Shown: piece by piece, positions 357 to 40,746 of the stretch
Numbering within the stretch: the first letter of the stretch is position 1
Layout: each line of letters opens with the position of its first letter
NCBI GenBank assembly: GCA_002724245.1
Contig: PBOG01000267.1
Coordinates: forward strand, 1-40,746
DNA: 40,746 nt
Origin: Planctomycetaceae bacterium
GTDB taxonomy: Bacteria; Planctomycetota; Planctomycetia; Pirellulales; Pirellulaceae
Direction: 5' to 3'
Notes under the pieces: generated by a model
Database searches by the model: none
What the model was told of the DNA's origin: nothing
The model's input: only the letters and a program-made list of their open reading frames with translations
Program-made: the position numbers and the translations under genes

Positions 357-537
357 TCGTTCGCCCAGAATTATGCTTAATCACCGGAATCTGGCAAATC
401 GCGCAGGCGGAAATCGCCACCCAGTACCCAAAACAGCTACCTGGTTTGGCTGATTCACTCGCGCGAAACATTTGCCCAAGACGGTCGACGCACTGCCACA
501 TTCGGCGGGGGATTTCAGTCCCCTGGCATGACCGATC

Positions 538-566
538 TTGAGCGTTGGCAATGCAGTTGGTCTAAT
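538..566 (+). promoter_or_regulatory. Candidate sigma-70-like promoter for the first DUF1501 gene
   Basis: TTGAGC at 538-543 (4 of 6 to the -35 consensus) and TCTAAT at 561-566 (5 of 6 to the -10 consensus) are 17 bases apart. Transcription would start near 573, about 60 bases before the ATG at 635. This is pattern matching only. Confidence 0.35.
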
Positions 567-634
567 AGACTACAGAGACCGGCCTCACGTCGGTACGAAT
601 TGCCCGCAGCTGGTGTTGCCCTTTGGAGACGTCC

Positions 635-2011: not shown

Positions 2012-2079
2012 CGCGTGTCCGCACGACGGTCCAGTACCGGTACTCCTGCCGCTAGCGCACCGCCACCCTCGTGCCTTCC

Positions 2080-3042: not shown

Positions 3043-3294
3043 AAGTCATTTGCGGGCTATTCTGACAGCCAGTTCACGGGCTCCCCAGAACTAGCCTGCC
3101 GTGATGGCCACTGGCGAGATCGGAGATTGTTTCAATAATGGGTAGACGACGGTTGTTTCGCGGCAAACCGAAAACGCTCTGTCGTGCTATCGCGTCATTC
3201 ACTCAATTGCTCTTGTCACCACGGTCCTCTCTCGGCGTCGCGCCAGCCTGGGCCTCGCGCAGACAAGAGTCCCAAGCAGAAGGCATTTTTTTCC

Positions 3295-4053
3295 ATGGAT
3301 TCAGGCGTCAAAGTCGCTATTGTCACAGGGGCCGGTTCGGGCGTAGGGCGTCATTCTGCCCTGGCACTCCTCGATCTCAACTTCCACGTCGTGCTCGCCG
3401 GGCGCCGGCCCGATGCCTTGCAAGAAACCATCGCATTGGCGGGTGAGCGCGCATCTCAAATGCAGGCGGTCGTCACCGATGTCTGTGACCCCGACTCAGT
3501 CACAGCGCTCTTTCGAGAAGCCGCGACCGTCTCTGGACGAATCGACCTGCTCTTCAATAATGCCGGCATCGGTGCTCCGGTCGGCCCACTCGAAGACCTG
3601 GCACTGAGCGACTGGCAACGCGTCCTCGACGTCAATCTGACAGGTGCCTTTCTCTGCACACAAGAGGCCATGAAACGGATGAAGTCCCAGGACCCCCAGG
3701 GAGGACGGATTATCAATAACGGTTCCGTGTCCGCCCAGGTGCCCAGGCCGCAGGCGGTCGCATATACGGCCAGTAAATGCGGGCTCACAGGCCTCACGGA
3801 AACCACTTCACTCGAAGGCCGCGGTTCCAACATTGCTTGTGGCCAAATCGATATCGGCAATGCCGACACTGCGATGGGAGGCCGCGTCGCCTCCGGCATG
3901 TTACAAGCGAACGGATCGACCTGTCCGGAACCGACGATGCACGTGGACAACGTCGCTCGCGCGGTCGCCTACATGGCCAGTCTGCCACTGGATGCAAATG
4001 TCCTCTCGCTGACGGTTATGGCCACTGAAATGCCACTGGCCGGGCGGGGATAG
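3295..4053 (+). CDS. SDR family NAD(P)-dependent oxidoreductase
   Basis: This is a classical short-chain dehydrogenase/reductase of 252 residues. All core motifs are present: the cofactor loop T-G-A-G-S-G-V-G at residues 11-18, N-N-A-G at 88-91, catalytic Ser at 144 in N-N-G-S-V-S, and the Y-T-A-S-K pair with Tyr157 and Lys161. After the active site it reads [11 protein letters not shown] where many SDRs have a Pro-Gly loop. I have seen the GQIDIGNA pattern as a subfamily mark in other bacterial SDRs. The substrate cannot be told. The ATG at 3295 gives a normal N-terminus; the open frame extends upstream to 3184 but that part is not SDR-like. The DUF971 gene follows on the same strand about 150 bases downstream. 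Confidence 0.92.
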
Positions 4054-4203
4054 CACCGTGACTTCGTTTCTGCAGAATACGCGAGAACAGGCAGTTCAAC
4101 CCCAGGCGTGAACCGCTCACCGCTGACGACATCGCGTTACCTATTTCCTCCTGCAGCACCACTCTACGAGCAGCACACCACACTCACGGGAACACGGACC
4201 AGA

Positions 4204-4506
4204 ATGCCAACACCGACGCGCATTACCCCTGTCCGCGAAAACCTCTGCCTGGAAATCACCTGGACAGACCAGACGGCCCAGGTCCCTTTCCGTGTTATCC
4301 GTGAGCAATGCCCGTGCGCACATTGCGTACACGAAATCACGGGGGAACGTCTGCTTGATCCTGCGACCCTACCCGCCGATTTACACATCGTCGACATGCA
4401 ACTTGTTGGAAATTACGCCCTGAAGATTTTCTGGTCCGATGGCCATGACACTGGCCTCTTCACCTGGGAGGCGTTGGCAAAGCTGAGTTTACCGCACTCT
4501 GACTGA
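4204..4506 (+). CDS. DUF971 domain protein
   Basis: This 100-residue protein matches the DUF971 fold (gamma-butyrobetaine-hydroxylase N-terminal-like domain). The mark is the segment R-E-Q-C-P-C-A-H-C-V-H-E with Cys36, Cys38 and Cys41, followed by T-G-E-R and a C-terminal D-G-H-D-T-G-L-F-T-W-E. Related domains occur alone, fused to Mrp/ApbC-type iron-sulfur carriers, or at the N-terminus of gamma-butyrobetaine hydroxylase, and they can bind metal through Cys/His. The exact role here is unknown. I chose the ATG at 4204 because family members begin about ten residues before the first beta strand. An upstream in-frame start at 4108 would add 32 residues unlike the family. Confidence 0.88.
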   Translation: MPTPTRITPVRENLCLEITWTDQTAQVPFRVIREQCPCAHCVHEITGERLLDPATLPADLHIVDMQLVGNYALKIFWSDGHDTGLFTWEALAKLSLPHSD

Positions 4507-4670
4507 ACATCGGTCATCCCGGCAACTCGCCAGCCCACGGCTGCGCGACGGACTCAATCCCCACCGGGCGTTGCAACGCCTGGCATGGCTGCGATATAAA
4601 CTCAGGACGTCGCATCCACGTGTCGCCTCGCTGTGACCATGCCCGCTTGCTGGCATCCGAACCCCGCGCC

Positions 4671-7600
4671 ATGCAGATCCGAATTATGCACGCTTCCATG
4701 ATTCCCGCATCTACTCGCCTCGCAGCAATCCTGCTGCTGGCCAATCTGTTCGTGACAGGGTGGCCCACACCCCAACTGATGGCCGCCGACTCAGCAGCGG
4801 CCACGAGACCGCCGTGGACTACTTCACGCATCAATGGCACGCCATCTCCCCCTGCGCCGTATCGCGTGGAAATCGCCTTCGCAGGAGTGCGTTTCAAGAC
4901 TCCTACGAGTATCACGGAGATTCCATCCGCCAGTGTGTTTCTGATTACCGAGCGCGAAGGCTGCATCTACACTTTTGCCAACAAGCAGGAGGTCAACGAC
5001 CGCAATCTGGTCGCAGATTTGCGGCAGTCACTGGCACCTGAACTGCTGGACAAACCTCTCTCCATTTACGGAGCAACCGTCCACCCACAGTTCGCAACAA
5101 ATCGGTTCTTATATGTCTGCTACACACATCCTGCTGATGGTGAACAAAGTCGCGTGTCTCGATTTGAAATGACAGCCCAAACGCCTTACCGGCTTGTGGC
5201 AGATAGTGAGCAAATCCTGATTACTTGGCCAGCGGGGGGGCACAATGGGGGCTGCCTGCGGTTTGGTAACGACGGGCATCTCTACATCTCAACGGGAGAT
5301 GGCTGGGGCCCGAACCCTCCTGATTTCAAGAAGACCGCGCAAGACGTCAGCAACTTGATGGGCTCCATTCTAAGGATCGACGTCGACCACCCGGCTCAGG
5401 GCAAATCTTATGGAATCCCCGCCGACAACCCCTTTCTCGAACTTCCCTCAGCGCGACCTGAGATCTGGTCCTACGGTCTGCGCAACCCGTGGAAGTTCGG
5501 TATCGATCGTGTAACCGGTAATATTTTTGTCGCTGACAACGGCTGGGAGACGTGGGAATCGATTCACCAGATCGTTCGTGGTGGAAACTGCGGTTGGCCC
5601 ATTCGGGAAGGGCGAGCAGCGCTGCGCAATGACGTGCAACAAGGCCCGACTCCAATCCGGCCGCCCATCAAAGACCACCCTCATACCGAAGCGAACTCAG
5701 TGATTGGCGGACCGGTCTATCGCGGTAAGACGATGCCGGATCTCGCCGGATACTTCGTATACGGCGATTATATCACCGGAACCATCTGGGGCTTGCGGGC
5801 GACCCCGGAAGGGGACCTCGAACACCGCACCCTGGTGGATACCGACCTGCGGATCGTCTCATTTACGGAGGGTAGTTCCGGTGATCTATACGTGCTGGAC
5901 TACGACCTTACCGGGCAGATTTATCGTTTACTGCCCTCAGATACTCCGGATACCTCTGCAAATTTCCCCAGGCGTTTGAGCGAAACCGGCCTCTTCAAGT
6001 CGCTGAGTCCATTGCAACCGGCTGCTGGCGTGATGCCCTACGATGTAACTGCCGGTCGCTGGCTGGATGGGGCCCAGGCAGCGCGTTGGATCGCCATCCC
6101 GGACCGCGGTCGAGTCCGATTGTCCCGCGATCTGAAGAGCCAGTCCAGCTTTCCGGAAAACACGGTTCTCGTCAAACACCTGACGTGGACCGCAACAGCC
6201 GGGCAACCAACGCGCCCCCTGGAAACCCAATTGCTGCATCGTTTTAACGGCACTTGGAATCCCTACAGCTACCGCTGGACCGCGGACGGCCAGGATGCCC
6301 TGCTGGTATCATCCGAAGGCTCCACCGAAACCATCTCGTTAGCCAGCCGCGCACCCGCCACTGGGCAGGAAGACCGCAGCTGGCACGTCGGCGCGGAAAA
6401 CGAATGCCGCATGTGCCACAACGCCGGCTCGCACTATGTCCTCGGTTTTGTCCCGCATCAACTCAACCTAGCTTCCGCCACCACGAATTCGGACCGCAGC
6501 GGTCAATTGGCGCAACTGGCCACTCAGGGAGTCATTGAACGCGACGCGCCGGTGCCGGCCCAGCACCCTTTGCGTCTGGTTGATCCGCACGACGCATCTC
6601 AACCTCTTGAAGACCGTGCACGATCTTACCTGCACGCCAACTGCAGCAGTTGTCACCATCCGGGTGGAAATGCCATTGTCTCTTTCTATTTACGGCGCGA
6701 CTTGTCACTGGACCAACTCAACGCATTTAAGGGGACTGGGATCGGAACCTTCGGAATTGACGATGCCAGGCTGCTGGTTCCCGGAGATCCGTACCGTTCC
6801 CTGATCCTCTACCGCATGAGTAAACTAGGCTACGCGCGCATGCCGTACATCGGGTCACGAGCTGTCGACTCCCAAGGCGTCGCTCTGGTCGCCCAATGGA
6901 TCAGCTCTCTGGCACCGGGTCAGGCACTGGCCGGACCAGCCAAACCTGGCAGCCCAGAACAGCAGGCACTGGAGGTTCTTGCCCCCCGGGGAGATGCCAA
7001 CCCTGTCCAACGCCGTCAGGCAATCGACACGCTACTGGCCAGCACTCCTGGGGCGTTATCGCTGATCACCCAACTGCATGGCGGACAACTGGCCCCACCC
7101 GATCGGAATCTGGCAATCCGCCTCGGGAGCCAGGCCGCACGTGGCGACGTCGCCGGCTTGTTTGAAGAATTCATTCCCGAGTCGCAACGGCTGGCACGCC
7201 TCGGCCAAAAGATCGACCCCGCGACGATCCTCTCACTCACGGGGAACGCACCACGGGGCCGTCTGATCTACTTTAGCGACAACGCACGCTGCCGCCATTG
7301 CCATCACGTCGACGACCCGGCACAGTCGCTGGGACCGACATTACAACAGATCAACCGCAAATATCCGCGCCGCGGTGAATTCCTGCAGCAAATCCTGCAA
7401 CCTTCCTTGAAAATCGAAGAAAACTTCCGTGCCCGCGTGCTTGTCACCGCGGAGGGCAGGCTGCACACGGGATTGCTTGAACGTGAGAGCCCGCAAGAAA
7501 TCGTGCTTCGCACTGCGGAAAAGAAACAACTCACCATCGAACGTGATGACATCGACGAACTGCAGATCAGCCCCATCTCACTGATGCCCCAATTCCTGCT

Positions 7601-7691
7601 GAGCGACCTGACTGCCCAGCAGGCGGCCGACCTGTTGGCGTACCTGCAGTCTCTGGGGGCAGCACCGCCTCCCCCGAAATCCAAACCTTAG
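4671..7691 (+). CDS. Secreted glucose/sorbosone dehydrogenase-like protein with three heme c motifs
   Basis: This is a 1006-residue exported protein that I read as three fused parts. Residues about 75-430 form a six-bladed glucose/sorbosone dehydrogenase-type propeller, with G-G-H-N-G-G carrying the expected catalytic His and G-L-R-N-P-W carrying the PQQ-contacting Arg. Residues about 460-745 resemble the HNE_0200/TIGR03806 region with two CxxCH motifs (C-R-M-C-H at 579 and C-S-S-C-H at 658). Residues about 860-1000 match the Pirellula-type heme-binding domain TIGR02603, with C-R-H-C-H at 874. The likely role is periplasmic oxidation of a sugar or related alcohol, with electrons passed to covalently bound hemes. 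The start could be 4671, 4686 or 4698. The last gives the tightest signal peptide (M-I-P-A-S-T-R, then Leu-rich). No clear ribosome binding site is visible. The gene converges on the quinone oxidoreductase, 17 bases away. Confidence 0.88.
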   Translation: MQIRIMHASMIPASTRLAAILLLANLFVTGWPTPQLMAADSAAATRPPWTTSRINGTPSPPAPYRVEIAFAGVRFKTPTSITEIPSASVFLITEREGCIYTFANKQEVNDRNLVADLRQSLAPELLDKPLSIYGATVHPQFATNRFLYVCYTHPADGEQSRVSRFEMTAQTPYRLVADSEQILITWPAGGHNGGCLRFGNDGHLYISTGDGWGPNPPDFKKTAQDVSNLMGSILRIDVDHPAQGKSYGIPADNPFLELPSARPEIWSYGLRNPWKFGIDRVTGNIFVADNGWETWESIHQIVRGGNCGWPIREGRAALRNDVQQGPTPIRPPIKDHPHTEANSVIGGPVYRGKTMPDLAGYFVYGDYITGTIWGLRATPEGDLEHRTLVDTDLRIVSFTEGSSGDLYVLDYDLTGQIYRLLPSDTPDTSANFPRRLSETGLFKSLSPLQPAAGVMPYDVTAGRWLDGAQAARWIAIPDRGRVRLSRDLKSQSSFPENTVLVKHLTWTATAGQPTRPLETQLLHRFNGTWNPYSYRWTADGQDALLVSSEGSTETISLASRAPATGQEDRSWHVGAENECRMCHNAGSHYVLGFVPHQLNLASATTNSDRSGQLAQLATQGVIERDAPVPAQHPLRLVDPHDASQPLEDRARSYLHANCSSCHHPGGNAIVSFYLRRDLSLDQLNAFKGTGIGTFGIDDARLLVPGDPYRSLILYRMSKLGYARMPYIGSRAVDSQGVALVAQWISSLAPGQALAGPAKPGSPEQQALEVLAPRGDANPVQRRQAIDTLLASTPGALSLITQLHGGQLAPPDRNLAIRLGSQAARGDVAGLFEEFIPESQRLARLGQKIDPATILSLTGNAPRGRLIYFSDNARCRHCHHVDDPAQSLGPTLQQINRKYPRRGEFLQQILQPSLKIEENFRARVLVTAEGRLHTGLLERESPQEIVLRTAEKKQLTIERDDIDELQISPISLMPQFLLSDLTAQQAADLLAYLQSLGAAPPPPKSKP

Positions 7692-7708
7692 CCACCGCGC
7701 CAAACCGA

Positions 7709-8683
7709 TCAGGGCAACAACACCGTTGACCCTGTCGTCCGCCGACCTTCGAGATCGCGATGGGCCTGCTCCGCTTCGGCCAGCGGGTAGGTCTGCTGTA
7801 CATCCACCTTGACGGCGCCCGCAGCAACCACTTCGAATAACTCGGCTGCATTCTCCAGCAACTCAGAGCGACTGCCGGAGTAGCTCGCCAAGGTCGGCCG
7901 TGTCAGGTAAAGCGATCCGCGCGCCGTCAGCTCATGAACAGGCAAGGGATCCACCGACCCCGACGACTGCCCGAACGTGACCATCAAGCCACGCGGACGA
8001 AGACAGTCCAACGAATCGAAAAACGTCGCCTGGCCGACCGAATCGTAAACGACGGGAACGCCCTGGGGCACCAGCTCACGCACGCGCTGAACGACGGATT
8101 CTGATTTGTAAAGGATCGGATGATCACACCCATGTGCCACTGCCAGATCGGCCTTCTCTGGACTCCCAACTGTACCGATCACAATTGCACCAAGATGTTT
8201 TGCCCATTGGCACAAGAGCAACCCTACCCCTCCTGCAGCCGCGTGCACCAGCACCACATCTCCCGGCTGAACCGCATAGCAATGGCGCACCAGGTACTGC
8301 GTTGTCAAACCCTTGAGCATCATCGCCGCGGCAGTCCGATCATCCACCGCATCGGGTAGCTTGACCAGACGATCGGCTGGAATCAGCCGCTGCTCCGAGT
8401 AACTACCTATCGGCCCGCCCGCGTAGGCCACCCGGTCCCCCACGGACAAATCATCGACCCCTTCTCCCAGGTTTTCGACGACGCCCGCGCCCTCCATGCC
8501 CAGAACGACTGGAAGTGTGTCGGTCGGATACAGCCCACTGCGATGGTAGGTGTCGATAAAATTGAGCCCAACCGCCGTCTGCCGTAACCGAACTTCGCCG
8601 GCACCCGGGACAGGGACTTCCACCTCCTCCCATTGCAGAACCTCTGGGCCACCTGTCTGATGAATACGAATTGCTTTTGGCAT
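7709..8683 (-). CDS. Zinc-free quinone oxidoreductase (medium-chain dehydrogenase family)
   Basis: This 324-residue protein belongs to the quinone oxidoreductase (zeta-crystallin-like) branch of the medium-chain dehydrogenase superfamily, which reduces quinones or enones with NADPH. The N-terminal GroES-like domain contains G-L-N-F-I-D-T-Y-H-R-S-G-L-Y near residues 39-52. The Rossmann nucleotide-binding segment is H-A-A-A-G-G-V-G-L-L-L-C-Q near residue 150. The structural-zinc Cys cluster of alcohol dehydrogenases is absent, as expected for this branch. No signal peptide is present, so it is cytoplasmic. It resembles E. coli Qor in length and motifs, but orthology was not tested. The NHL gene lies 83 bases upstream on the same strand. 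Confidence 0.92.
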   Translation of the reverse strand: MPKAIRIHQTGGPEVLQWEEVEVPVPGAGEVRLRQTAVGLNFIDTYHRSGLYPTDTLPVVLGMEGAGVVENLGEGVDDLSVGDRVAYAGGPIGSYSEQRLIPADRLVKLPDAVDDRTAAAMMLKGLTTQYLVRHCYAVQPGDVVLVHAAAGGVGLLLCQWAKHLGAIVIGTVGSPEKADLAVAHGCDHPILYKSESVVQRVRELVPQGVPVVYDSVGQATFFDSLDCLRPRGLMVTFGQSSGSVDPLPVHELTARGSLYLTRPTLASYSGSRSELLENAAELFEVVAAGAVKVDVQQTYPLAEAEQAHRDLEGRRTTGSTVLLP

Positions 8684-20932: not shown

Positions 20933-21065
20933 TACCCGAACCCGATGTACTACACTAACCACCCCGAGTTGTTCCTGCTCTCACCGTGTCCCTGAAAACT
21001 ACCTGCGTCCCACAGCGTCGCCATCCACGATGGCCAGCTGCTCTCTAACACAAAGTTGCACCACC

Positions 21066-22892
21066 ATGTCACATCACAGACGATCTGCTTTTTACTTGCG
21101 CAGCGCGCTGGCCTGGACGCTCTGCTTCACTTGTATCAACCTGACTTCCCACGCCGAGGAAGAAAACCAGCCTGACGCCAAGCCCGCCAAACAAAACGTC
21201 CATTTACTCGCCATGCGTGGCGCCTACGCAGACCTGCCGCAATCGATGGGCCTCGATGTGACCTCCCTGCTGCAAGGACCAGTTAACCAGAAGCCTTTCT
21301 ACCGGCTCTGCGAATACGTCGACAAATTGGCCGACGGGGAAACACACCAATACCTTGTGTTGGATCTTTCGGATCCGACCTTAGCCATGAACATGGCCCA
21401 GCTGGACGAGTTCACGCGGCGCATCGAACGCTTCAAAAAGTCAGGAAAAAAGACGATCGCGTGGCTGGAAGACGCCTCCACTGTCGCATTGGCAATCGCC
21501 GCGTCCTGCGATGAAGTCTTGATGGCCGATTTTGGTGGCATTGACATGCCCTCGCTGGCCATGCAAAGCATGTACTACAAGGACGCCTTCGACCTGCTGG
21601 GGATCCAGGCATCGGTGGTCCGCGCAGGAAATTTCAAGGGAGCGGTAGAACCCTACACACAATCGGTCATGAGCGCTCATTTGCGGGAACATTATCTGCA
21701 AATGCTACGGCGTATTAACGATGGTGTCGTCGCCAAGATCGCGGTCGGCCGTGGACTTGAAAAAGAGCTTATCCGCCGTCTACAGAAGCAGCGAATCGTG
21801 CTACCGGAAGAGGCCTTGGCCGCGGGCCTGATCGACGGTCTGGCACCGTACGGCAGTCTGAAAACAACCCTGTCGGAGCGCATCCCTGGAGAACTCGCCT
21901 GGTCAAGCCCGGCGACGAAACCACAGCGTTCCGTTTCCTTTTTCGAGCTGATGGGAAGCCTAATGTCAGGCCCGAAAACCGCCACTCGAACGCGGGGTTC
22001 CGTCATCGCCGTCTTGCACTTGAGTGGTAATATCATTTCCGGAAGAAATGCCAGTAGCGGTTCGATTGTCTCTGGCGCAACGGTCAAGACCATCCAATCC
22101 CTGATCGACGATGACACGATCAAGGCCGTCGTCATTCGCATCAACTCACCAGGGGGAAGTGCTACCGCCAGTGAAATCATCCGTAGCGCCCTGGAGAAAT
22201 TGGTCGCCGCCAAGCCCACCGTGGTTTCCATGGGAGACACGGCAGCTTCTGGCGGCTATTGGATCAGTTGCATCGGTGTCCCGGTTTACGCTGAGTCCGG
22301 AACCATTACAGGTTCCATTGGAGTATTCTCGATGAAGCTGAGTGGTCGGGCGCTGTTGCGACGTGTGGGAGTTCACATCGAGTCCCTTACACTCGACGAC
22401 TCCGCCGGCATGTTCTCACTTGATCGCATTTGGTCCGTTGACGAAAAAGCAGCACTTGAGAAAACGATCGACAGCGTCTACGGACGATTCCTGGCGTTGG
22501 TCTCCAAAGCACGCAACCTGCCGATCGACAAAGTTCGCGAACTCGCAGGTGGTCGTGTCTGGTCCGGGAGCCAGGCGCGGGAACTCGGGCTGGTCGACCA
22601 CTTGGGCGGTGTCGATGATTGCCTCACCTACCTGGCGGAAAAAGCCGAGCTCGACAAATACACTGTCGTACACCGGCCGCTGGCCAGCACCGGCCTTAAC
22701 CTGATGGAACTGCTGGGTAGTGGAGGGGGCGATGAAATTCTCAGTGGCTTGGGAAGACGTCAACTCCGCGCATTGGCGGCCCGTGGTCTGCAACTCAACC
22801 AGTTGCGATTACTACTCGACGACGCCGAGCGAGCTGGTTCCGGACCACCAACCATCTGGGCGCTACACCCTGAGGAAATCACCATCCGCTAG
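21066..22892 (+). CDS. sppA: S49 family signal peptide peptidase, SppA long type
   Basis: This is a 608-residue duplicated S49 peptidase of the 67-kDa SppA type. The N-terminal half carries the general-base Lys in N-F-K-G-A-V-E-P-Y (Lys191). The C-terminal half carries the nucleophile Ser in A-A-S-G-G-Y-W (Ser395), matching Lys209 and Ser409 of E. coli SppA. The N-terminus has a short basic region and one hydrophobic segment, so the protein is anchored in or exported across the cytoplasmic membrane. There it would degrade cleaved signal peptides and short membrane peptides. The ATG at 21066 starts the signal segment; an upstream in-frame ATG at 21030 is possible. No ribosome binding site is visible. 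The stop lies 7 bases from that of the convergent amidohydrolase gene. Confidence 0.92.
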   Translation: MSHHRRSAFYLRSALAWTLCFTCINLTSHAEEENQPDAKPAKQNVHLLAMRGAYADLPQSMGLDVTSLLQGPVNQKPFYRLCEYVDKLADGETHQYLVLDLSDPTLAMNMAQLDEFTRRIERFKKSGKKTIAWLEDASTVALAIAASCDEVLMADFGGIDMPSLAMQSMYYKDAFDLLGIQASVVRAGNFKGAVEPYTQSVMSAHLREHYLQMLRRINDGVVAKIAVGRGLEKELIRRLQKQRIVLPEEALAAGLIDGLAPYGSLKTTLSERIPGELAWSSPATKPQRSVSFFELMGSLMSGPKTATRTRGSVIAVLHLSGNIISGRNASSGSIVSGATVKTIQSLIDDDTIKAVVIRINSPGGSATASEIIRSALEKLVAAKPTVVSMGDTAASGGYWISCIGVPVYAESGTITGSIGVFSMKLSGRALLRRVGVHIESLTLDDSAGMFSLDRIWSVDEKAALEKTIDSVYGRFLALVSKARNLPIDKVRELAGGRVWSGSQARELGLVDHLGGVDDCLTYLAEKAELDKYTVVHRPLASTGLNLMELLGSGGGDEILSGLGRRQLRALAARGLQLNQLRLLLDDAERAGSGPPTIWALHPEEITIR

Positions 22893-27332: not shown

Positions 27333-27362
27333 TTCATTTCCACACGTCACCATGGTTATAAT
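27333..27362 (+). promoter_or_regulatory. Candidate promoter for the Nif11-like gene
   Basis: A perfect TATAAT lies at 27357-27362, with TTCATT (3 of 6 to the -35 consensus) at 27333-27338, 18 bases upstream, inside an A/T-rich stretch that stands out from the G/C-rich surroundings. Transcription would start near 27369, about 44 bases before the ATG at 27413. The -10 match is strong and the -35 weak. Confidence 0.4.
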
Positions 27363-27412
27363 AGGCGGCTTAGATAAGATACGCACATTGCACACAATTT
27401 GAGCATGCTGGA

Positions 27413-28348
27413 ATGTTGGAATCAACATCAATAGCGTTCCGCACCCTTCTCAACGCAGATCCTGAACTCGAAGAGCTGCTGCGTTTGGGGCTGAGTGATG
27501 GAACGCTCAAACTCATCAATATGGCGGCCGAACACGGTTTTGAATTCGTGGCCTGGATTTCCCAAGAAGAAGCGCGCAAACGCGAGCAGCCTGATCGTGT
27601 TGCTCAGCGTCCCGTCAGCGTGCAATACCGACGTCGGCGACGGCGCTCCCGTACCGACGATAGCGAAAACGGTATTGATACCAACCACGAAAATGGCAAT
27701 GGGAACGGTACAAACGGCCACCGCCGACGCCGCAATGGCGAGACAAGGTCTTCACACGGAGAAGGCAGAAGACGACGCAGAATCACCCGCGACCGAGATA
27801 GCGAATCCAAGGAAACTCGCGAGGTGCCGCACCGCAATGGCGGTCAGCCATCTGGAGAGATTCAGCCCGATACCCACCACGCGGAAGACCGCCACTTTAC
27901 AGGTGACACAGGCCACGAAGACGTTTTGGCCCGTGAACCGATCGCAGACACCAACGGTGAAGCCAGGGAATCTTATCAAACAGCCGGTGACACCAACGGT
28001 GAAGCCAGGGAATCTTATCAAGCAGCCGGTGACACCAACGGTGAAGCCAGAGAATCTTATCAAACAGCCGGCGACACCAACGGTGAAGCCAGAGAGTCCC
28101 ATGAACCGTTCGGGGACAGTGACGACAACGGGAAGTTGTCGCACGATGCAGATTCGCAGTCCGTGACGCCCGCTGAGGCAATCACGCCGGATCAAGCCCG
28201 TCCCAGACGTACGCGACGCAGCGTACGCAGACGAAGCCCCACCGGCACAACGTCAATACCGGTCACCCAAAATGGCCACAACAAGACGTCGACTGACGAA
28301 AACAGGCCTGCTGGCCCATCGAATTCACTGCCTACGAAACTCTGGTAA
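27413..28348 (+). CDS. Protein with Nif11-like N-terminal domain and disordered repeat tail
   Basis: This is a 311-residue protein. Residues 8-53 resemble the Nif11 domain, with A-F-x-x-L-L-N-A-D-P-E-L-E-E-L-L, a helix pair, and the closing A-A-E-H-G-F-E-F. Nif11 domains are best known as leaders of some ribosomally made peptide natural products and also occur in proteins of unknown role. The rest is highly polar and probably disordered. It contains an Arg cluster (R-R-R-R-R-R-S-R-T), a second (R-R-R-R-N-G), four tandem copies of D-T-N-G-E-A-R-E-S-Y-Q-T-A-G at residues 179-234, and a basic C-terminal patch (R-R-T-R-R-S-V-R-R-R). The basic stretches suggest nucleic-acid binding, but this is inference. 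No peptide-modifying enzyme, protease or exporter is adjacent, so a natural-product precursor role is doubtful. The ribosome binding site is weak. Confidence 0.75.
   Translation: MLESTSIAFRTLLNADPELEELLRLGLSDGTLKLINMAAEHGFEFVAWISQEEARKREQPDRVAQRPVSVQYRRRRRRSRTDDSENGIDTNHENGNGNGTNGHRRRRNGETRSSHGEGRRRRRITRDRDSESKETREVPHRNGGQPSGEIQPDTHHAEDRHFTGDTGHEDVLAREPIADTNGEARESYQTAGDTNGEARESYQAAGDTNGEARESYQTAGDTNGEARESHEPFGDSDDNGKLSHDADSQSVTPAEAITPDQARPRRTRRSVRRRSPTGTTSIPVTQNGHNKTSTDENRPAGPSNSLPTKLW
27947..28114 (+). repeat. Four tandem 42-bp repeats encoding a 14-residue unit
   Basis: Units start at 27947, 27989, 28031 and 28073. The first three encode D-T-N-G-E-A-R-E-S-Y-Q-[TA]-A-G and differ by only a few bases. 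The fourth keeps D-T-N-G-E-A-R-E-S and then diverges. The low divergence between the first three suggests recent duplication by slippage or unequal crossing over. Confidence 0.95.
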
Positions 28349-29852: not shown

Positions 29853-29960
29853 CCGATCTGCGACTCACCGCTGTCTGCTACTATCACGAACTGGACTTCA
29901 CTCCTGACGGATCACATGCGGCAGCGCGAATCCAGCCATCTGTCTGGAAAGCTTCCCAAC

Positions 29961-32564
29961 ATGGATGCATGTTTTGCCAATTCTGGCCGGTTCTGCAAGT
30001 CTGCTGGATCCATGGTGATCTGGTTACTGGCATGCTCGCTCTCATCTTGCTCTTTAGCGTATGGCGCAAACATTTTTGACGCTGAAGAGCTCTTTGCATC
30101 CGGACAATACACAGAGTGTGCTGAACTCGCCGCAGCAGAAATCAAGAAACGCAACTTCAGCGAACCCTGGCGGATCCTGAAAACACGCGCTGAAATGGCA
30201 CAAGGACAGTACGCCACAGCTCGAGAAACCCTCGAAGTCGCTCTCAACCAATTCCCCGGCAGCATTCGCCTACGCTGGCTCGCGCATGAGGTGCTGCCAT
30301 TCTCTGGTGAATCCGAGAAGAGCCGCACTTTGCTCACGGAATTGGAGCGAATTGCAAGTGCCAACCCAGGCCGTTACAGCGACGCCGGCAACTTGATTAC
30401 TTTGGGACAGTACTACCTGCACAAAGGGGCCGACGCCCGCCAGGTACTCAACATTTTCTTCAAACCGGTGAAGACTCGTCTCCCCGACTACGTAGAAATC
30501 TACCTGGCCTGCGGGGAACTGGCTCTCTCCAAGCACGATTACGAGTTGGCTGCCGAAGAATTTCGCCGCGCCGAAAAACTGCTGCCACTTCATCCGGAAG
30601 TGCATTACGGATTGGCTCGGGCACTCTCCAGCAGTCAACCAGAACTTGCCGGCGAAGCACTCGAGAAGGCTTTGAAGCATAACCCCCGGCACGTGAACTC
30701 GCTGCTCCTTAAAGCGAACCATTTTATTGATGCGGAGGCGTACGCCGCAGCCGAAGATGCGATCCAAGAGGTGCTGGCTGTCAACCCAGAACACCCGTCT
30801 GCCTGGGCGCTGCGTGCTGTTATGGCACACCTGAACAACGACCGTGACAAGGAACAAGAATCACGGTCGCGCGCGCTCAAACACTGGACGGACAACCCGG
30901 CCGTAGATGCATTGATCGGGCGCAAGCTGTCACAAAAGTACCGTTTTGAAGAAGGCGCCACGTACCAGCAACAGGCCCTAAAGTTCGACAAGTCTTACCT
31001 GGCGGCCAAAATTCAACTCTCACAGGATCTGTTGCGCCTCGGACAAGAGGAAGAGGGTTGGCGTTTGGCTGGTGAGGTTTCTGATGCGGATGGCTATCAC
31101 ATCGTCGCGCATAACCTGGTGCAACTGAAACAGGAACTGGCCAAATTTAAAACACTGCGCGCGGACGGACTTATCGTCCGTATGGACTCTCGCGAAGCCG
31201 GGATTTATGGCGACCGCGCCCTCGCCTTACTGACTCGCGCCCGGCAGGAGCTGGGGGCCAGGTACGACACCGATCTGGAAACGCCGGTGATTGTCGAGAT
31301 CTTCCCTCAACAACAGGACTTTGCGATACGGACTTTCGGACTTCCGGGCGGTGCCGGTTTCCTGGGAGTCTGTTTCGGCAATGTGATCACGGTCAACAGT
31401 CCGGCATCACAAGGTGAACACCCGGCTAATTGGGAAAGTGTGTTGTGGCACGAATTCTGCCATGTGGTCACACTTCGGAAAACGCGGAACCGAATGCCAC
31501 GCTGGTTGAGCGAGGGGATTTCTGTCTACGAGGAACGCCAGGAGAACGCTGCCTGGGGTCAGGCAATGACCCCCCGCTACCGTCAAATGATCCTGAGCGA
31601 TGCGCTGACGCCGGTCAGTCAATTGAGTGGCGCGTTCCTGCGCCCAGCAAGCCCGCTGCACTTGCAGTTTGCCTATTATGAGGCCTCTCTGGTGGTTGAA
31701 TACCTCATCGAACAGTTCGGTTTCCCCGCGCTACAGCACGTGCTCACCGACCTTGGCAAAGGCATCTCGATCGTTGATGCGTTACAACGTCATACGGCTT
31801 CCCTGGAGTTCCTGGACAAAGAGTTTGCCAACTATGCCCAGCAACGCGCTAGAGCCTGGGCTTCCCAGGCCGACTGGGAAGAACCCGATCTGCCTCCCGA
31901 CGCCGACCTCGCGCAATGGGTCGAGTGGAATGACAGCCATCCAGACAACTACTGGGGATTGCAACAGCAAGCCAGGCTACTGCTCTCCCAGCAAGCGTGG
32001 CGAGCTGCCGAAACGCCACTCCTGAAACTCGTGGCTCTGATTCCCCAAGACCGCAGCGAAACAAGTGCCTTTCGTATGCTTGCCACCGTGTACGCGAAAC
32101 TGCAAGACCAGGCACGCGAGGAGACCATGTGGAAGCGTGTGGCAGAACTGCAATCTGATTCCCAGGATGCCTATCTACGCCTCATGGAACTTTCCCGTAC
32201 ACAGCGTGCCTGGAAGCGTCTGGCCACCAATGCGCAGCGCATGCTGGCCGTCAACCCACTCCTGCCAGCCACCCATCGCTGGCTCGCGGAGGCAGCCGAT
32301 CACCTCAATGATCGGCCCACCAGCATAGGCGCCTACCGGTCGCTGCTGGCCATGGACCCCGTCGACCCTGCCGAAAGCCACTTTCAATTGGCCCAACTGC
32401 TCTATCGGGAAGGCCAAATCCAAGCCGCGCGCCGGCAAATACTCCAATCACTTGAACACGCACCGGATTACCGCGCCGCCCTGAACCTGCTCCTGGAAAT
32501 ACGGCAGGGGGATTCTTACGAAACGCCACCGGAACCCCCGCTCGCACGCACGGATGCACCATGA
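29961..32564 (+). CDS. Secreted TPR protein with gluzincin metallopeptidase (peptidase MA-like) domain
   Basis: This 867-residue protein has a signal segment, then tetratricopeptide-like helices over about residues 40-400. A zinc-peptidase domain carries H-E-F-C-H (His497, Glu498, His501), followed about 20 residues later by L-S-E-G-I-S-V-Y-E-E, the third ligand Glu of gluzincins. A second TPR block runs from about 640 to the end. Peptidase MA-like domains are probable proteases, and the TPRs would hold a substrate or partner. The start could be 29916, 29961 or 30012; GGAAAG 9 bases before the ATG at 29961 supports that choice, while 30012 begins directly at the hydrophobic segment. The stop overlaps the start of the DUF4159 gene by 4 bases (ATGA), which implies translational coupling. 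This gene is the proposed first member of the MoxR cluster. Confidence 0.88.
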   Translation: MDACFANSGRFCKSAGSMVIWLLACSLSSCSLAYGANIFDAEELFASGQYTECAELAAAEIKKRNFSEPWRILKTRAEMAQGQYATARETLEVALNQFPGSIRLRWLAHEVLPFSGESEKSRTLLTELERIASANPGRYSDAGNLITLGQYYLHKGADARQVLNIFFKPVKTRLPDYVEIYLACGELALSKHDYELAAEEFRRAEKLLPLHPEVHYGLARALSSSQPELAGEALEKALKHNPRHVNSLLLKANHFIDAEAYAAAEDAIQEVLAVNPEHPSAWALRAVMAHLNNDRDKEQESRSRALKHWTDNPAVDALIGRKLSQKYRFEEGATYQQQALKFDKSYLAAKIQLSQDLLRLGQEEEGWRLAGEVSDADGYHIVAHNLVQLKQELAKFKTLRADGLIVRMDSREAGIYGDRALALLTRARQELGARYDTDLETPVIVEIFPQQQDFAIRTFGLPGGAGFLGVCFGNVITVNSPASQGEHPANWESVLWHEFCHVVTLRKTRNRMPRWLSEGISVYEERQENAAWGQAMTPRYRQMILSDALTPVSQLSGAFLRPASPLHLQFAYYEASLVVEYLIEQFGFPALQHVLTDLGKGISIVDALQRHTASLEFLDKEFANYAQQRARAWASQADWEEPDLPPDADLAQWVEWNDSHPDNYWGLQQQARLLLSQQAWRAAETPLLKLVALIPQDRSETSAFRMLATVYAKLQDQAREETMWKRVAELQSDSQDAYLRLMELSRTQRAWKRLATNAQRMLAVNPLLPATHRWLAEAADHLNDRPTSIGAYRSLLAMDPVDPAESHFQLAQLLYREGQIQAARRQILQSLEHAPDYRAALNLLLEIRQGDSYETPPEPPLARTDAP

Positions 32565-35487: not shown

Positions 35488-37571
35488 ATCTGATTCCCAG
35501 CATGCTGTTTCCATGGTTCCTCGCCGGTGCCTTCGCTATTGCATTGCCCATTGCGCTTCATTTCCTGAGGCGATCTCCGCGAGGTCGCACCGAATTCAGT
35601 TCTTTGATGTTTGTCCCGACATCCCCGCCCACGTTGACCAGCAAGAACCGTCTGGACGACTGGTTTTTACTCCTGCTCCGAGCGCTCGCAGTGCTTCTAC
35701 TGGCAATCGCTTTTGCCCGTCCGTTCTTTCGCTCCAGTGACATGCTAGACGAGGTTGCGGCCAGCAATCGGCGCGTGGCCATCCTGGTAGATCGCAGTGC
35801 CAGTATGCGGCGGGCCGACCTCTGGCAACGCGCCGCTGAAGAGGCGGAACGGGCCGCAATCGACGCGTCAAGCGAGTCTGACGTCGCTGTCTATGCCTAC
35901 GATGACTCCCTGGAAGTCATCGTCCCGTTCGCGGAAACCGGCGGACCGCAAGCCGCTGGGACGCATATCAGAGGAGTCAAGCAACGCCTTCTTGATGCCG
36001 GCCCGACCTGGGGCGCGACGAACGTCGCGACCGCGCTGACCTCCGTCGCGGACGCCATGTTGGCCTGGCAGGATCGACAACGCACCCAGACCACCTTGCA
36101 GATCATCTTGATCTCAGACATGCAAAAAGGTAGCCAGCAGGAGCAACTACAGTCCTACGAATGGCCGCTCCAGATTCCAGTCGACGTACGGCCCATTGTG
36201 CCCAGCGTCACCGCCAATGCCGGGATTCAGTTACTGTCCAATGACGACGACTTGAACCCCACCACGGAACAGCGCGTGCGTGTCAGCAATCAACGCGAGT
36301 CGACCCGGGAGCAATTCCAACTCCGCTGGTGGGCTGGTACCAGCCCGCTTGGCGAACCACTTGCCATCTACGTACCTCCGGGCGAAAGCCGCGTCGTGCA
36401 GCTTGCCAGACCCACGCCAGGGAGTGCCGTAGATCGCCTGACGATCACAGGCGACGATTGCGACTTCGACAACAATCGGTTTCTGATCCCTAGTGAACAG
36501 CGAAACGTCACCGTCCTCTATTCCGGAGCAGGTAGCCTCCAGGACACAAAGCAGATGGCCTATTTCTTAAATCTGGCCATGATTGACAGCCAGCGGAGGC
36601 GGCTACGTATGCAGCTGCAACCGGCTTCCGATCCCGGCCCTCTGGCGATCGATGACGAGACAGGCCTGGTCGTGGTCAGCCGCGCACTCTCCGCGGACCA
36701 GATTAGACAGTTGCACAGCTATACCGCTGCAGGTGGAGCAGTGCTGTTCGTTGTTCCAGATGCCAGTGTAGAGGAGACGCTCGGTGCGCTGCTGGAGGAC
36801 CCCGCGATCAAGCTGGCAGAAGCTGCTGGCGATTACGCAATGCTGGGCCAGATAGATTTCGAACATCCCCTGTTCGCGAGCTTCCTCGGAGCGCGTTACA
36901 ACGACTTCACCAAGATACGTTTCCAACGGCACCGCAAAATACTGATGAGCGCAACAGAGACCGTAGAGATCATCGCGCGCTTTGACACCGGCGTCCCGGC
37001 AGTGCTCGTGCAACGACGGGGGTCTGGACAATTAGTCATCCTCTCATCCGGATGGCACCCGGCCGACAGCCAACTCGCTCTCTCGAGCAAATTTGTCCCG
37101 TTCCTGGAAGGCCTGCTAGACAGTACCAGCAATGCATCCCAGACGCCCGTGAACTGGCAAATCCACGATGCGGTGCCAGTGAATGGATTCACCGTAGTGG
37201 AAACCCCGACGGGTGAAGAGATCAAACTGGACACGAACGCCACACATTTTGACGCGACGCTCTCACCCGGCATCTATCAAGCCCGGTTAAGTGACCAGAC
37301 CCGTCGCTGGTCCGTCAATCTGGCACCTTCTGAAAGTCGCACTGCACCCATTGATCGCTCTGCATTGGAACAACATGGAGTCCAGCTCGGAGTGGCAACC
37401 AGTCAAGAAGCCGAATTACAACGGGCACGCCAACTTCGTCGTACAGAATTAGAGAGTAATCAGAAAATATGGCGTTGGGCCATCGTTGCGGCGTTCGGTT
37501 TGCTGATTGTCGAAACCTGGCTGGCGAGCAGACCCAAACCTGAGCCTTCTCCTCTTGGATCGACAGGATAA
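35484..37571 (+). CDS. BatA-type VWA membrane protein
   Basis: This 695-residue protein starts with the BatA N-terminal domain. A first membrane segment is followed by the family-typical A-L-H-F-L-R-R-S-P and a second hydrophobic segment at about 58-75 (W-F-L-L-L-L-R-A-L-A-V-L-L-L-A-I-A-F). The VWA domain follows, with L-V-D-R-S-A-S-M (Asp103). The long middle has few features beyond a class I glutamine-amidotransferase-like stretch. A C-terminal membrane helix (about 660-680) leaves a short tail. The extracytoplasmic or membrane VWA domain would pair with MoxR and DUF58. The start lies within the DUF58 stop codon context, and the next gene follows after 4 bases. Confidence 0.9.
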   Translation: MNLIPSMLFPWFLAGAFAIALPIALHFLRRSPRGRTEFSSLMFVPTSPPTLTSKNRLDDWFLLLLRALAVLLLAIAFARPFFRSSDMLDEVAASNRRVAILVDRSASMRRADLWQRAAEEAERAAIDASSESDVAVYAYDDSLEVIVPFAETGGPQAAGTHIRGVKQRLLDAGPTWGATNVATALTSVADAMLAWQDRQRTQTTLQIILISDMQKGSQQEQLQSYEWPLQIPVDVRPIVPSVTANAGIQLLSNDDDLNPTTEQRVRVSNQRESTREQFQLRWWAGTSPLGEPLAIYVPPGESRVVQLARPTPGSAVDRLTITGDDCDFDNNRFLIPSEQRNVTVLYSGAGSLQDTKQMAYFLNLAMIDSQRRRLRMQLQPASDPGPLAIDDETGLVVVSRALSADQIRQLHSYTAAGGAVLFVVPDASVEETLGALLEDPAIKLAEAAGDYAMLGQIDFEHPLFASFLGARYNDFTKIRFQRHRKILMSATETVEIIARFDTGVPAVLVQRRGSGQLVILSSGWHPADSQLALSSKFVPFLEGLLDSTSNASQTPVNWQIHDAVPVNGFTVVETPTGEEIKLDTNATHFDATLSPGIYQARLSDQTRRWSVNLAPSESRTAPIDRSALEQHGVQLGVATSQEAELQRARQLRRTELESNQKIWRWAIVAAFGLLIVETWLASRPKPEPSPLGSTG

Positions 37572-37575
37572 AGTC

Positions 37576-40500
37576 ATGACCGACTCCCGAATCCAACATT
37601 CACTTGAGTCCGTTGCCACTCGCATCTGGCGACTGGAGTGTCTGCGTGTCAGTGCGGTCAGCTGGGCAATCCTTACCGTCGCTGGCGCAACCTTGTGGTA
37701 CCTGCAAACCACGGGCGTCTGGTCCTCGCGTTGGACCCTGGCGGCGTTGTTCGCTGCGGCCATCCTGATCCCCTGGCAGGTCCTCCGTTCCAGGCGTCGC
37801 TACTGGACAAACTTCCGCCTTATGGCGACGCGAATCGAACAGGAGTACCCGACGCTCAACACCCGACTTCTGGCTGCTATGGAACAACAACCTCAGGTAC
37901 CGGGTAACGGGCTGAACTATCTACAAGAGACATTAATTCGCCAGGCATTGAAACAGGGTGGACAACGAGGCTGGGAGCGTATGGCCCCACTGCGTGCTCA
38001 ACTGCTGACCTGCACCGCCTGTTTTACCGCTCTGTCCACGCTAGCCATCAGCGGCGTCGGTCTGGCAGTCACGAGTCCGCCCCTACCAGAGCCACAAGCA
38101 ACCACGACCAGCAGCGCCGACGCTCCACCCGATTCGCTCGGTATTCAAGTAGACCCTGGAGACACTGAAATCGAACGCGGTACAAGTTTGCAGGTGATGG
38201 TCCGATTTGAGAAGAAACTCCCGTTTGAGGTCACATTGCATCACCAGGGCGGCGCCGCTGTCTCGCAACAGGTGCCGATGTCACAAAGCCTGGACGACCC
38301 TGTATTTGCCAGTCGCCTGTCCAACGTACAACAGGACATGGTCTACCACGTTTCCTATCCTGGCTGGAAAAGCCCCAGCTACCGCGTTCGCGTTTTCGAT
38401 TATCCCGCACTTCAACAAGCGGATGCCAAACTCGTCTACCCTGGCTACACGGGGCTCTCTGAAAAGCAAGTCACCGATGTACGCCGCTTGACCGCTGTTG
38501 AAGGTACCCAGGTGACGCTCGCCATGTACCTCAACAAACCAATTCAGGTCGGGCATCTGCGAGACTCAGAAAACCGTGAAATCCCGCTGCAACCCACTGC
38601 AATAAATCCACACATGTACACCGTGGAAATGCCCCTGATGGCCTCCGGCCGCTATCGACTTCACCTGGTAGACGACCAGGAACGTTCCAATAAATTTCCG
38701 CCCGAATTCGTCTTCCGGGCGACTCCCAACCAGACGCCAAAACTCACCATCAAACACCCCGGACGCGATGTCCTCGTATCTCCCCTGGAAGAACTTCGCC
38801 TTAAGGCTGACGCGTGGGATGATTTTGGCCTGACCGATCTCGGATTAACGTACAACCTGGCTGGTCAGGAATCCCACGAAATACTCTTTGACCAACCATC
38901 CGAAACCGTCCGCCAACAGTCACTGGATCAGCTATTGGCCATGGAAGATCTCCAAGCCGAGCCTGACCAGTTACTCTCTTTTCATTTCTGGGCACAGGAT
39001 ATTGGTCCTGATGGCCAACCCCGTAAAACCTACAGTGACATGTACTTTGCCGAGGTCCGGCCGTTTGACGAAATCTACCGTTCTGCACCCTCGCCTCCCG
39101 GTGGCCAATCCCAGCAACAGGGGAACAACGCACAACAGTCCCCCTCAGGCGCCAGCGAGCAGCTCGCCGAGCTGCAGAAACAGATCATCAACGGCACCTG
39201 GAAATTACAGCGTCAGGTGGGAATTCGCTCTACACCGGAGACCTGGTCAGCCGACGCAACGGTCCTGCGTGACTCACAACAGTCCGCGCTCGATCAGCTG
39301 AGTGCGGTTGGTGCGGCAAGCGAAGACCCTGACGCCGCCGCCGACATCGACGCCATCCAAAAGCACATGAGGGCAGCTGGCACACACCTTGCTGAAGCGC
39401 TCCAGGCTGACACCGAAGCTGCACAAGTTGAAGCTGCCTTGAAATCTGCACTCCAACAAGAACAAGCGGCCTACCAGGGCCTCCTCCGCTTGCGAGCTCG
39501 GGAGCATCAAGTCAGTCGACAAAACAACCAGAGAGGCCGTTCATCAAGCGCCCGCGGTTCGGCCAGCCGTTTTCAACAACAACTCGAACAACTCGAACTC
39601 GCAAATTCAGACAACCGTTACGAAACGCAAAGCCAGGCACAACCACAAACCGAGGAAGATAGCCAGCAGCGCGAAGACCGGCAGATCCTCAATCGTCTCC
39701 GCGAACTTGCGCGGCGTCAGGAAGATCTCAATGATCGCATCAAGGAGATGCAATCAGCGTTACAAGAGGCGGCTAACGAAGAGGAGCAGGAGGAAATCCA
39801 GAAACAGCTGCAGCGGTTACGAGATCAACAACAAGAAATCCTCCGCGACACGGATGAACTCAGCAGCCGTATGCAGCAACCCGAAAACCTACCCAGAATG
39901 GCCGAGGCCCAACAACAGCTCGAAGACGCTCGCCAGAATTTGACGCAGTCATCGGAAGCACTTCAGGACGGACAAGTCTCACAGGCAGCAGCCTCGGCGA
40001 CCCGCGCCGAGCGTGACTTCAAGGAGCTCCGGGAAGAATTCCGCCAGTCCACCGCTGAACGTTTCTCCGATGCCATGAAACAGATGCGCGAAGATGCGCG
40101 TGAACTGACGCGAAACGAGCAGGCCATTGCCGACGAATTGAAATCACTCGATGAACCCAAGTCACGTTCCCTTCGCGAGACTCCGCAACGTGACCAGCTC
40201 GAGGAGGAGCTCGCCGAACAGCAGGCCGACATCGACAAACTACTCCAACGCATGGAAGAGACGATTACAGAAGCTGACGAGACAGAACCGCTCCTGTCCA
40301 ATCAACTCTACGACACACTTCGCGACACACGGCAAGGACGATTACAGGATGCGATGCGCTCGACTCGGGAGTTGATCAAACAGGGTTTCCTGGAGAATGC
40401 CCGCAACGCTGAGGAAGTCGCTCGAGGTGAACTTGAAAAGCTCGAGGAGGGTGTCGAGAAGGCTGCCGAGAGTGTCCTGGGCGATGAAACCTCCGGTCTA

Positions 40501-40746
40501 CGTCGTGCGCTCGACGAGGTCCGTGATCTTCAGGACCAGCTGGAAAGTGAAATCTCCCGCGCCACCGATGAACAGCCAAACGACTCGGATGCGCCGGAAC
40601 CACAACAGGATCAACCACAACAGGATCAACCACAACAGGATCAACCACAACAGGATCAACCACAACAGGGACAACCACAACAGGGACAACCACAACAGGG
40701 ACAACCACAACAGGGACAACCACAACAGGGACAACCACAACAGGGA
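37576..40746 (+). CDS. DUF4175-like coiled-coil membrane protein (3' end outside window)
   Basis: An open frame of 1057 codons runs from the ATG at 37576 to the last base, so the C-terminus is missing. The N-terminus has hydrophobic segments at about 28-45, 52-70 and 143-167, matching the membrane start of DUF4175-type proteins. A region of beta character follows, including Y-P-G-Y-T-G at about residue 290. After about 510 the protein becomes a very long, highly charged coiled coil rich in Gln, Glu, Arg and Asp. It ends in a Pro/Gln repeat. As last gene of the MoxR, DUF58 and VWA set, it is probably the large structural partner of that complex. It starts 4 bases after the VWA stop. The function is unknown. 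Confidence 0.85.
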   Translation, partial: MTDSRIQHSLESVATRIWRLECLRVSAVSWAILTVAGATLWYLQTTGVWSSRWTLAALFAAAILIPWQVLRSRRRYWTNFRLMATRIEQEYPTLNTRLLAAMEQQPQVPGNGLNYLQETLIRQALKQGGQRGWERMAPLRAQLLTCTACFTALSTLAISGVGLAVTSPPLPEPQATTTSSADAPPDSLGIQVDPGDTEIERGTSLQVMVRFEKKLPFEVTLHHQGGAAVSQQVPMSQSLDDPVFASRLSNVQQDMVYHVSYPGWKSPSYRVRVFDYPALQQADAKLVYPGYTGLSEKQVTDVRRLTAVEGTQVTLAMYLNKPIQVGHLRDSENREIPLQPTAINPHMYTVEMPLMASGRYRLHLVDDQERSNKFPPEFVFRATPNQTPKLTIKHPGRDVLVSPLEELRLKADAWDDFGLTDLGLTYNLAGQESHEILFDQPSETVRQQSLDQLLAMEDLQAEPDQLLSFHFWAQDIGPDGQPRKTYSDMYFAEVRPFDEIYRSAPSPPGGQSQQQGNNAQQSPSGASEQLAELQKQIINGTWKLQRQVGIRSTPETWSADATVLRDSQQSALDQLSAVGAASEDPDAAADIDAIQKHMRAAGTHLAEALQADTEAAQVEAALKSALQQEQAAYQGLLRLRAREHQVSRQNNQRGRSSSARGSASRFQQQLEQLELANSDNRYETQSQAQPQTEEDSQQREDRQILNRLRELARRQEDLNDRIKEMQSALQEAANEEEQEEIQKQLQRLRDQQQEILRDTDELSSRMQQPENLPRMAEAQQQLEDARQNLTQSSEALQDGQVSQAAASATRAERDFKELREEFRQSTAERFSDAMKQMREDARELTRNEQAIADELKSLDEPKSRSLRETPQRDQLEEELAEQQADIDKLLQRMEETITEADETEPLLSNQLYDTLRDTRQGRLQDAMRSTRELIKQGFLENARNAEEVARGELEKLEEGVEKAAESVLGDETSGLRRALDEVRDLQDQLESEISRATDEQPNDSDAPEPQQDQPQQDQPQQDQPQQDQPQQGQPQQGQPQQGQPQQGQPQQGQPQQG
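40606..40746 (+). repeat. 15-bp tandem repeat encoding Q-D-Q-P-Q / Q-G-Q-P-Q
   Basis: Four copies of caggatcaaccacaa (40606-40665) are followed by five copies of cagggacaaccacaa (40666-40740) and six more bases of the same unit at the window edge. A single change, from Asp to Gly codon, separates the two blocks. The array is in frame and extends the disordered tail of the DUF4175-like protein. The true copy number is unknown because the window ends inside it. Confidence 0.95.

Follow-up and report, generated by a model that had tools for sequence, protein, structure and literature searches.

The window, i.e. the whole 40,746-nucleotide stretch of DNA that was analysed, corresponds to contig C236 of a planctomycete assembly of 7.8 Mb in 287 contigs. 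On its forward strand, an open reading frame (ORF) of 311 aa, running from ATG to TAA (27413-28348), encodes a protein which combines a Nif11-like head with a long Arg-patched tail. According to Pfam, the neighbouring genes encode a VOC/glyoxalase protein, an unnamed membrane-like protein, a WD40/amidohydrolase protein, a squalene-cyclase-like protein and a TPR/peptidase-MA protein. Farther along the window, downstream of DUF4159, MoxR-type AAA, DUF58 and BatA genes, lies a large Gln/Glu-rich protein (37507-40746) with QQDQPQQGQP-type repeats at its end, which leave the window.

Gene Conservation and Distribution

Orthologues have been detected in both other genomes of the same genus (G002 and G001) among the 60 genomes compared, one with 283 aa (G002) and the other truncated by a contig end (G001), and the ATG start is common to all three genes. 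The window aligns with G002 over most of the 20-41 kb range (fetched parts), with gene order kept. In G001, the VOC and amidohydrolase genes are kept beside the orthologue, with the intervening membrane-like gene unmatched; the G002 version of this membrane-like neighbour shows a sub-threshold zinc ribbon. Overlapping ORFs exist in other frames at the locus. A chance ORF or a wrong frame can be ruled out, since the differences from G002 over residues 1-80 fall 4/5/31 on codon positions 1/2/3, and the coordinates, strand and frame given by the initial annotation are correct. The ORF is a real, conserved gene under selection. As measured against the syntenic G002 orthologue, and thus for a single pair of sequences, dN/dS is 0.055 for residues 1-80, comprising 0.081 for residues 1-52 and 0.026 for residues 53-80, the strongest constraint in the protein. 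It then rises to 0.168 for residues 81-170 and to 0.573 for the repeat region (residues 171-245, 40 codons aligned), where constraint is weakest, and stands at 0.321 for residues 246-311. Compared with G001, synonymous sites are saturated, and dN is 0.158 over residues 1-80. Some 50 bp before the ATG, at 27356-27365 on the forward strand, stands the box TTATAATAGG, which could be a -10 element. G002 has it unchanged and G001 with a single difference (TTACAATAGG); a consensus scan reported no promoter at this position.

A profile built from the three heads matched 4 of 149 family genomes at E <= 0.01, the analysed genome included, these being the three members of the genus and G017 (E 0.007). 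The G017 match, located inside a 515-aa frame with TPR-like repeats by eye, was discarded. The gene had no match among 50,697 phage records and no relative was found in viral contigs, which speaks against a phage origin. A Nif11-like protein of this form is so far seen only in this genus, in three genomes among those searched. Both orthologues derive from metagenome assemblies, and with so few genomes the reach of the finding is limited for now.

Architecture of the Protein

The Nif11-like domain covers residues 1-47 (27413-27553, forward strand), with helices predicted at residues 3-15, 17-27 and 32-40. It is followed by a basic segment (residues 53-80; 27569-27652, forward strand) ending in the first Arg patch (RRRRRR, residues 73-78). 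Arg patch 2 (residues 103-126; 27719-27790, forward strand) contains RRRR and RRRRR runs which are both present in G002, and Arg patch 3 (residues 263-274, RPRRTRRSVRRR; 28199-28234, forward strand) reads RPRRSRRSVRRK in G002. The C-terminus, NSLPTKLW (28322-28345, forward strand), is identical in G002, with the G001 fragment ending before it.

Residues 81-311 (231 aa) are made up of 12.6% R, 10.8% G and 7.4% N, with 9% hydrophobic residues and a net charge of -9, a composition from which the tail is inferred to be disordered. The Arg patches described in the initial annotation are borne out, as runs of at least three Arg occur at residues 73-78, 104-107, 119-123 and 272-274. Three of these four runs are present in G002, where the fourth reads RRK, and G001, as far as its contig reaches, has runs at 73-77 and 103-106. 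Shuffling of residues 67-311 never gave as many residues in Arg runs (0 of 10000 shuffles) and rarely reached the observed charge blockiness (1 of 5000), while 184 of 10000 shuffles attained the peak net charge of a 15-residue stretch, which is therefore not very unusual in a sequence of this composition. A search of the same genome for a second copy of the Arg-rich segment found only the segment itself. As the tail has no family match, the argument for nucleic-acid binding is drawn from composition and conservation only. Arg-rich disordered RNA-binding tails are a general class, and the likeness to them consists in Arg clusters separated by polar, disordered-looking sequence. Those tails bind RNA, whereas binding is putative here and no homologous tail was found.

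The four 14-residue tandem repeats reported earlier could likewise be recovered (residues 179-234; 27947-28114, forward strand), with Tandem Repeats Finder giving a 42-bp unit in 3.5 copies with 96% matches, located after Arg patch 2. Each unit consists of DTNGEARES plus five residues, the copies starting at residues 179, 193, 207 and 221, and the fourth having diverged at its end. In G002, a 21-bp repeat in 3.3 copies lies between Arg patches 1 and 2, and in G001 a different 21-bp repeat (GEARETN) in 3.1 copies lies after Arg patch 2 and runs into the contig end (C37, 1-67), which is probably an assembly break at the repeat. All three orthologues thus possess a tandem repeat with abundant N, G, E and T, its unit, place and copy number differing. 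Different repeats next to conserved Arg runs indicate that the patches and the C-terminus are kept while the repeats turn over, and the best reading of the repeat region is that of a spacer rather than a conserved core. The presence of a repeat in every copy may mean that an N/G/E/T-rich repeated spacer is favoured, or that such sequence merely slips easily.

Nif11-like Proteins Elsewhere in the Genome

A genome-wide search for the same N-terminus, as suggested in the initial annotation, did reveal other Nif11-like proteins, on contigs C64, C122 and C286. A profile including the rows of the present gene and of these three, together with one from G020, matched 4 of 396 order genomes at E <= 0.001, and its four places in the analysed genome are this gene, C64, C122 and C286. 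The matches in this genome and in G020 are given by construction, because the profile contains those rows; the new matches are G057 and G562. PF07862 used by itself matched 7 of the 149 genomes of the family at E <= 0.001, 6 of them above the cut-off, including all three genus members. As in the protein described here, the C64, C122 and C286 proteins (88 aa for C64 and 216 aa for C286) have a Nif11-like head and no leader end of the L(X)4L plus Gly-Gly type. Unlike it, none of them contains runs of at least three Arg, and their neighbours differ. The C64 protein (315-581), which has no Cys, lies beside a GFO/IDH/MocA oxidoreductase, an arrangement which is the same on contig C118 of G001. It has an apparent, degenerate leader end (LTEFEEEMLSSTG).

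The C286 protein (604-1254) shares a long low-complexity tail with the present protein. It has a Nif11-like N-terminus, ends in WWKFW and adjoins a PAAR protein and VgrG; the preceding ORF of 127 aa (187-570) is similar by eye. These features raise the question of whether the protein described here is an adaptor or cargo of a secretion system, with the head recognised by an export machine and the tail serving as payload or tether, as may be the case for C286. Consistent with this, Trp is the last residue of both the present protein and its G002 orthologue, which recalls the Trp-rich C-terminus of C286. Against it, the 21 window proteins scanned with Pfam include no secretion gene, and the tails differ, Arg runs being absent from C286. 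The C286 protein itself had no Pfam match at 0.001, and only a close relative on contig C9 of G002 scores at the Pfam Nif11 cut-off. A role in secretion is considered unlikely.

Relationship of the Head to Nif11

The initial annotation had likened the N-terminus to Nif11 leaders. Direct searches gave this no significant match, as Pfam hmmscan returned no PF07862 match for the full protein or for its first 72 residues (E <= 10), or for either orthologue (E <= 1), and the NCBIfam model TIGR03798 did not match the protein. A TIGR03798 search of the genome gave four places at E <= 1, none being this gene and none above the cut-off. The resemblance was upheld by profile-profile comparison. The three-row head profile, composed of close rows only (Neff 1.2), was compared by hhalign with a mixed set of 14 Nif11-like proteins, giving 97.2%, although this set included proteins found with the same profile. 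Compared with eight proteins found only by PF07862, it gave 91.6% and a score of 34.6, which none of 200 column shuffles reached (maximum 18.6), while the reversed profile scored 8.2. These eight were taken from the 14 places of the PF07862 search of 149 family genomes, leaving out three duplicate translations, one with an internal stop, one below the cut-off and one near-copy in G002; all hhalign E-values are those of single comparisons. The similarity stops at about residue 47, and the structured part of Nif11-like leader peptides (PF07862/TIGR03798, N11P) aligns with residues 1-47, including F9 and the G42-F43 turn.

A search of 392 phylum genomes with the head profile matched two short proteins in G124, a member of another planctomycete family (per-genome E 8.2e-6 and 9.1e-4), both of which pass TIGR03798 (E 7.2e-14 and 2.8e-12). 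At E <= 0.1, 38 of the 392 genomes matched, and the analysed genome, G124 and G207 were used. A match in G446 (E 6.4e-5) has an internal stop and longer ORFs in other frames and was dropped. Matches of HTH_47 (E 0.034), Raftlin (PF15250, E 0.0042) and PHROG families (E 0.0025, 0.07 and 0.22), being weak, below the Pfam cut-offs or on the low-complexity tail, were set aside.

Structural comparisons have been less informative. In AlphaFold models of the head, helices are predicted with low confidence (mean pLDDT of 57.8 and 66.2, the latter for a model of 57 residues), and as Foldseek found no match in the PDB with such a model, no claim on the fold is based on it. Among PDB sequences, Nif11 profiles reach 9zn4, a 'Nif11 domain-containing protein', at E 2.2e-17 without the head rows and 1.7e-14 with them, and the three-row head profile by itself reaches only 2lnj (E 0.49) and 9zn4 (E 0.69). 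Together with the lack of direct Pfam and NCBIfam matches and the low diversity of the query profile, these values leave some room for the view that the head is an unrelated short helical bundle resembling Nif11, on a disordered protein which is specific to the lineage and plays some structural part. The score against the independent Nif11 set, well above shuffled and reversed profiles, and the recovery of two TIGR03798 precursors from another family of the phylum argue against this view, which is held to be quite improbable. Homology of the head to Nif11, below curated thresholds, thus appears well supported by the profile comparisons.

Leader Motifs and Peptide Biosynthesis Genes

Nif11-like leaders have been described as a structured nucleus followed by an Asp/Glu-rich disordered region with an L(X)4L motif (PMC12715784) and a Gly-Gly site (PMC2887384), and double-Gly leaders as being cleaved by a C39 protease (PMC6363468). 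In the present protein, residues 48-80 read WISQEEARKREQPDRVAQRPVSVQYRRRRRRSR, and the basic segment at 53-80 occupies the place of the acidic L(X)4L/Gly-Gly part. In a motif scan, L(X)4L occurred only within the head, at residues 22 and 27, and not beyond it. A single GG, at residue 143, has no L(X)4L stretch before it and does not align with any GG in G002. No Cys occurs in the 311 aa or in the 283-aa G002 orthologue. For the proteins of G124 and G207, the same scan did pick up both L(X)4L and GG where they would be expected. Compared with Nif11-like leaders, the protein lacks the acidic part and carries about 260 further residues with Arg patches, and its scanned neighbours comprise no modification or export genes. 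The G124 proteins, which scored highest among the head's relatives from outside the genus when the phylum was searched, differ from the 311-aa protein in being Nif11-type precursors of 78 and 81 aa; they contain ELSDFELELVSGG and have a short end. They are encoded with their GG sites on contig C655 (83-4933), near HlyD and a radical SAM/SPASM-like protein which falls slightly below Pfam cut-offs. The locus may represent a RiPP cluster of the radical-SAM type, although only one of the two precursors contains Cys, and just a single residue of it.

The initial annotation had noted the lack of modification enzymes, proteases and exporters nearby, and this holds for the 21 Pfam-scanned proteins of the window save for two peptidase-family matches, S49 (21030-22892) and peptidase-MA (29916-32564). 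Neither is known as a RiPP leader protease. When the search was extended to the genome, as had been proposed, YcaO gave no match. LANC_like and peptidase C39 each matched at a single place, both on contig C278, which carries a class II lanthipeptide cluster (377-8655) with LanM (TIGR03897, E 7e-289), a C39 ABC transporter and an HlyD protein. The genome is thus not free of modification enzymes, the case in which the initial annotation would have given up the precursor idea. This cluster has two mersacidin/lichenicidin-type precursors of its own (TIGR03898, E 3.6e-15 and 3.3e-15), with Cys after GG.

The alternative offered in the initial annotation, that of an undescribed precursor with a repeated core processed by enzymes encoded elsewhere, would call for a Cys-free core (e.g., ester-linked or radical-SAM-modified), as lanthionines cannot form where Cys is absent. 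It can draw on the relationship of the head to Nif11 leaders, on the N-, G-, E- and T-rich tandem repeats in 3/3 orthologues, and on the fact that the genome encodes a LanM as well as a C39 transporter, one of each; Nif11 precursors can also be distant from their LanM (PMC2887384). Nonetheless, it is weakened by the missing leader motifs and Cys, by a repeat unit and place that differ in each orthologue, in the least constrained region of the protein (dN/dS 0.57), and by a LanM already provided with two TIGR03898 precursors in a genome with no YcaO. The protein is very probably not a RiPP precursor, and an origin of this kind ranks as highly unlikely. The other branch of the initial annotation, a Nif11 protein with a separate role, fares better, the N-terminus being Nif11-like with the leader motifs missing.

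Proposed Role and Meaning for the Nif11 Family

The explanation tentatively preferred is that of a non-RiPP Nif11-like protein with a docking head, a polyanion-binding basic arm with Arg patches, and repeats acting as spacing. The protein would probably be cytoplasmic. Its three-helix head (residues 1-47) may dock on a protein partner or self-associate, while the basic arm (residues 53-80) and the two further Arg patches, placed on a disordered, otherwise acidic, N/G-rich tail, would bind a polyanion, with RNA or the ribosome as the most likely candidate and DNA as a less likely one. The repeats would constitute a fast-changing spacer which sets their spacing. In favour of this explanation, constraint peaks in the basic arm (0.026) and reaches its minimum in the repeat region (0.57), the Arg runs exceed those of shuffled sequences, and the genome encodes further Nif11-like proteins (C64 and C286) that do not have a Gly-Gly leader end. 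Against polyanion binding, the tail carries a slight negative net charge, and some shuffles match its peak charge; furthermore, no hint of function comes from the neighbouring genes. A search of open-access literature on Nif11 brought up no account of such a protein.

Nif11 proteins have mostly been mined as RiPP precursors. The family had been named for proteins without known function (PMC2887384). A conserved member without the cleavage part and with a constrained basic arm suggests that the domain can be retained for another purpose, and for genome mining it implies that a Nif11-like head with tandem repeats does not by itself make a precursor. A broader and more doubtful proposal is that, in this genus, the structured Nif11 nucleus left peptide biosynthesis and came to serve as the docking head of various unrelated proteins of the cell. 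If this were so, it would be carried by the present protein, with its Arg patches and an association with RNA or DNA, by C286 within a T6SS-like island, and by C64 and C122 as small proteins standing alone. Nif11 would then act, beyond RiPPs, as a module that recognises peptides or proteins.
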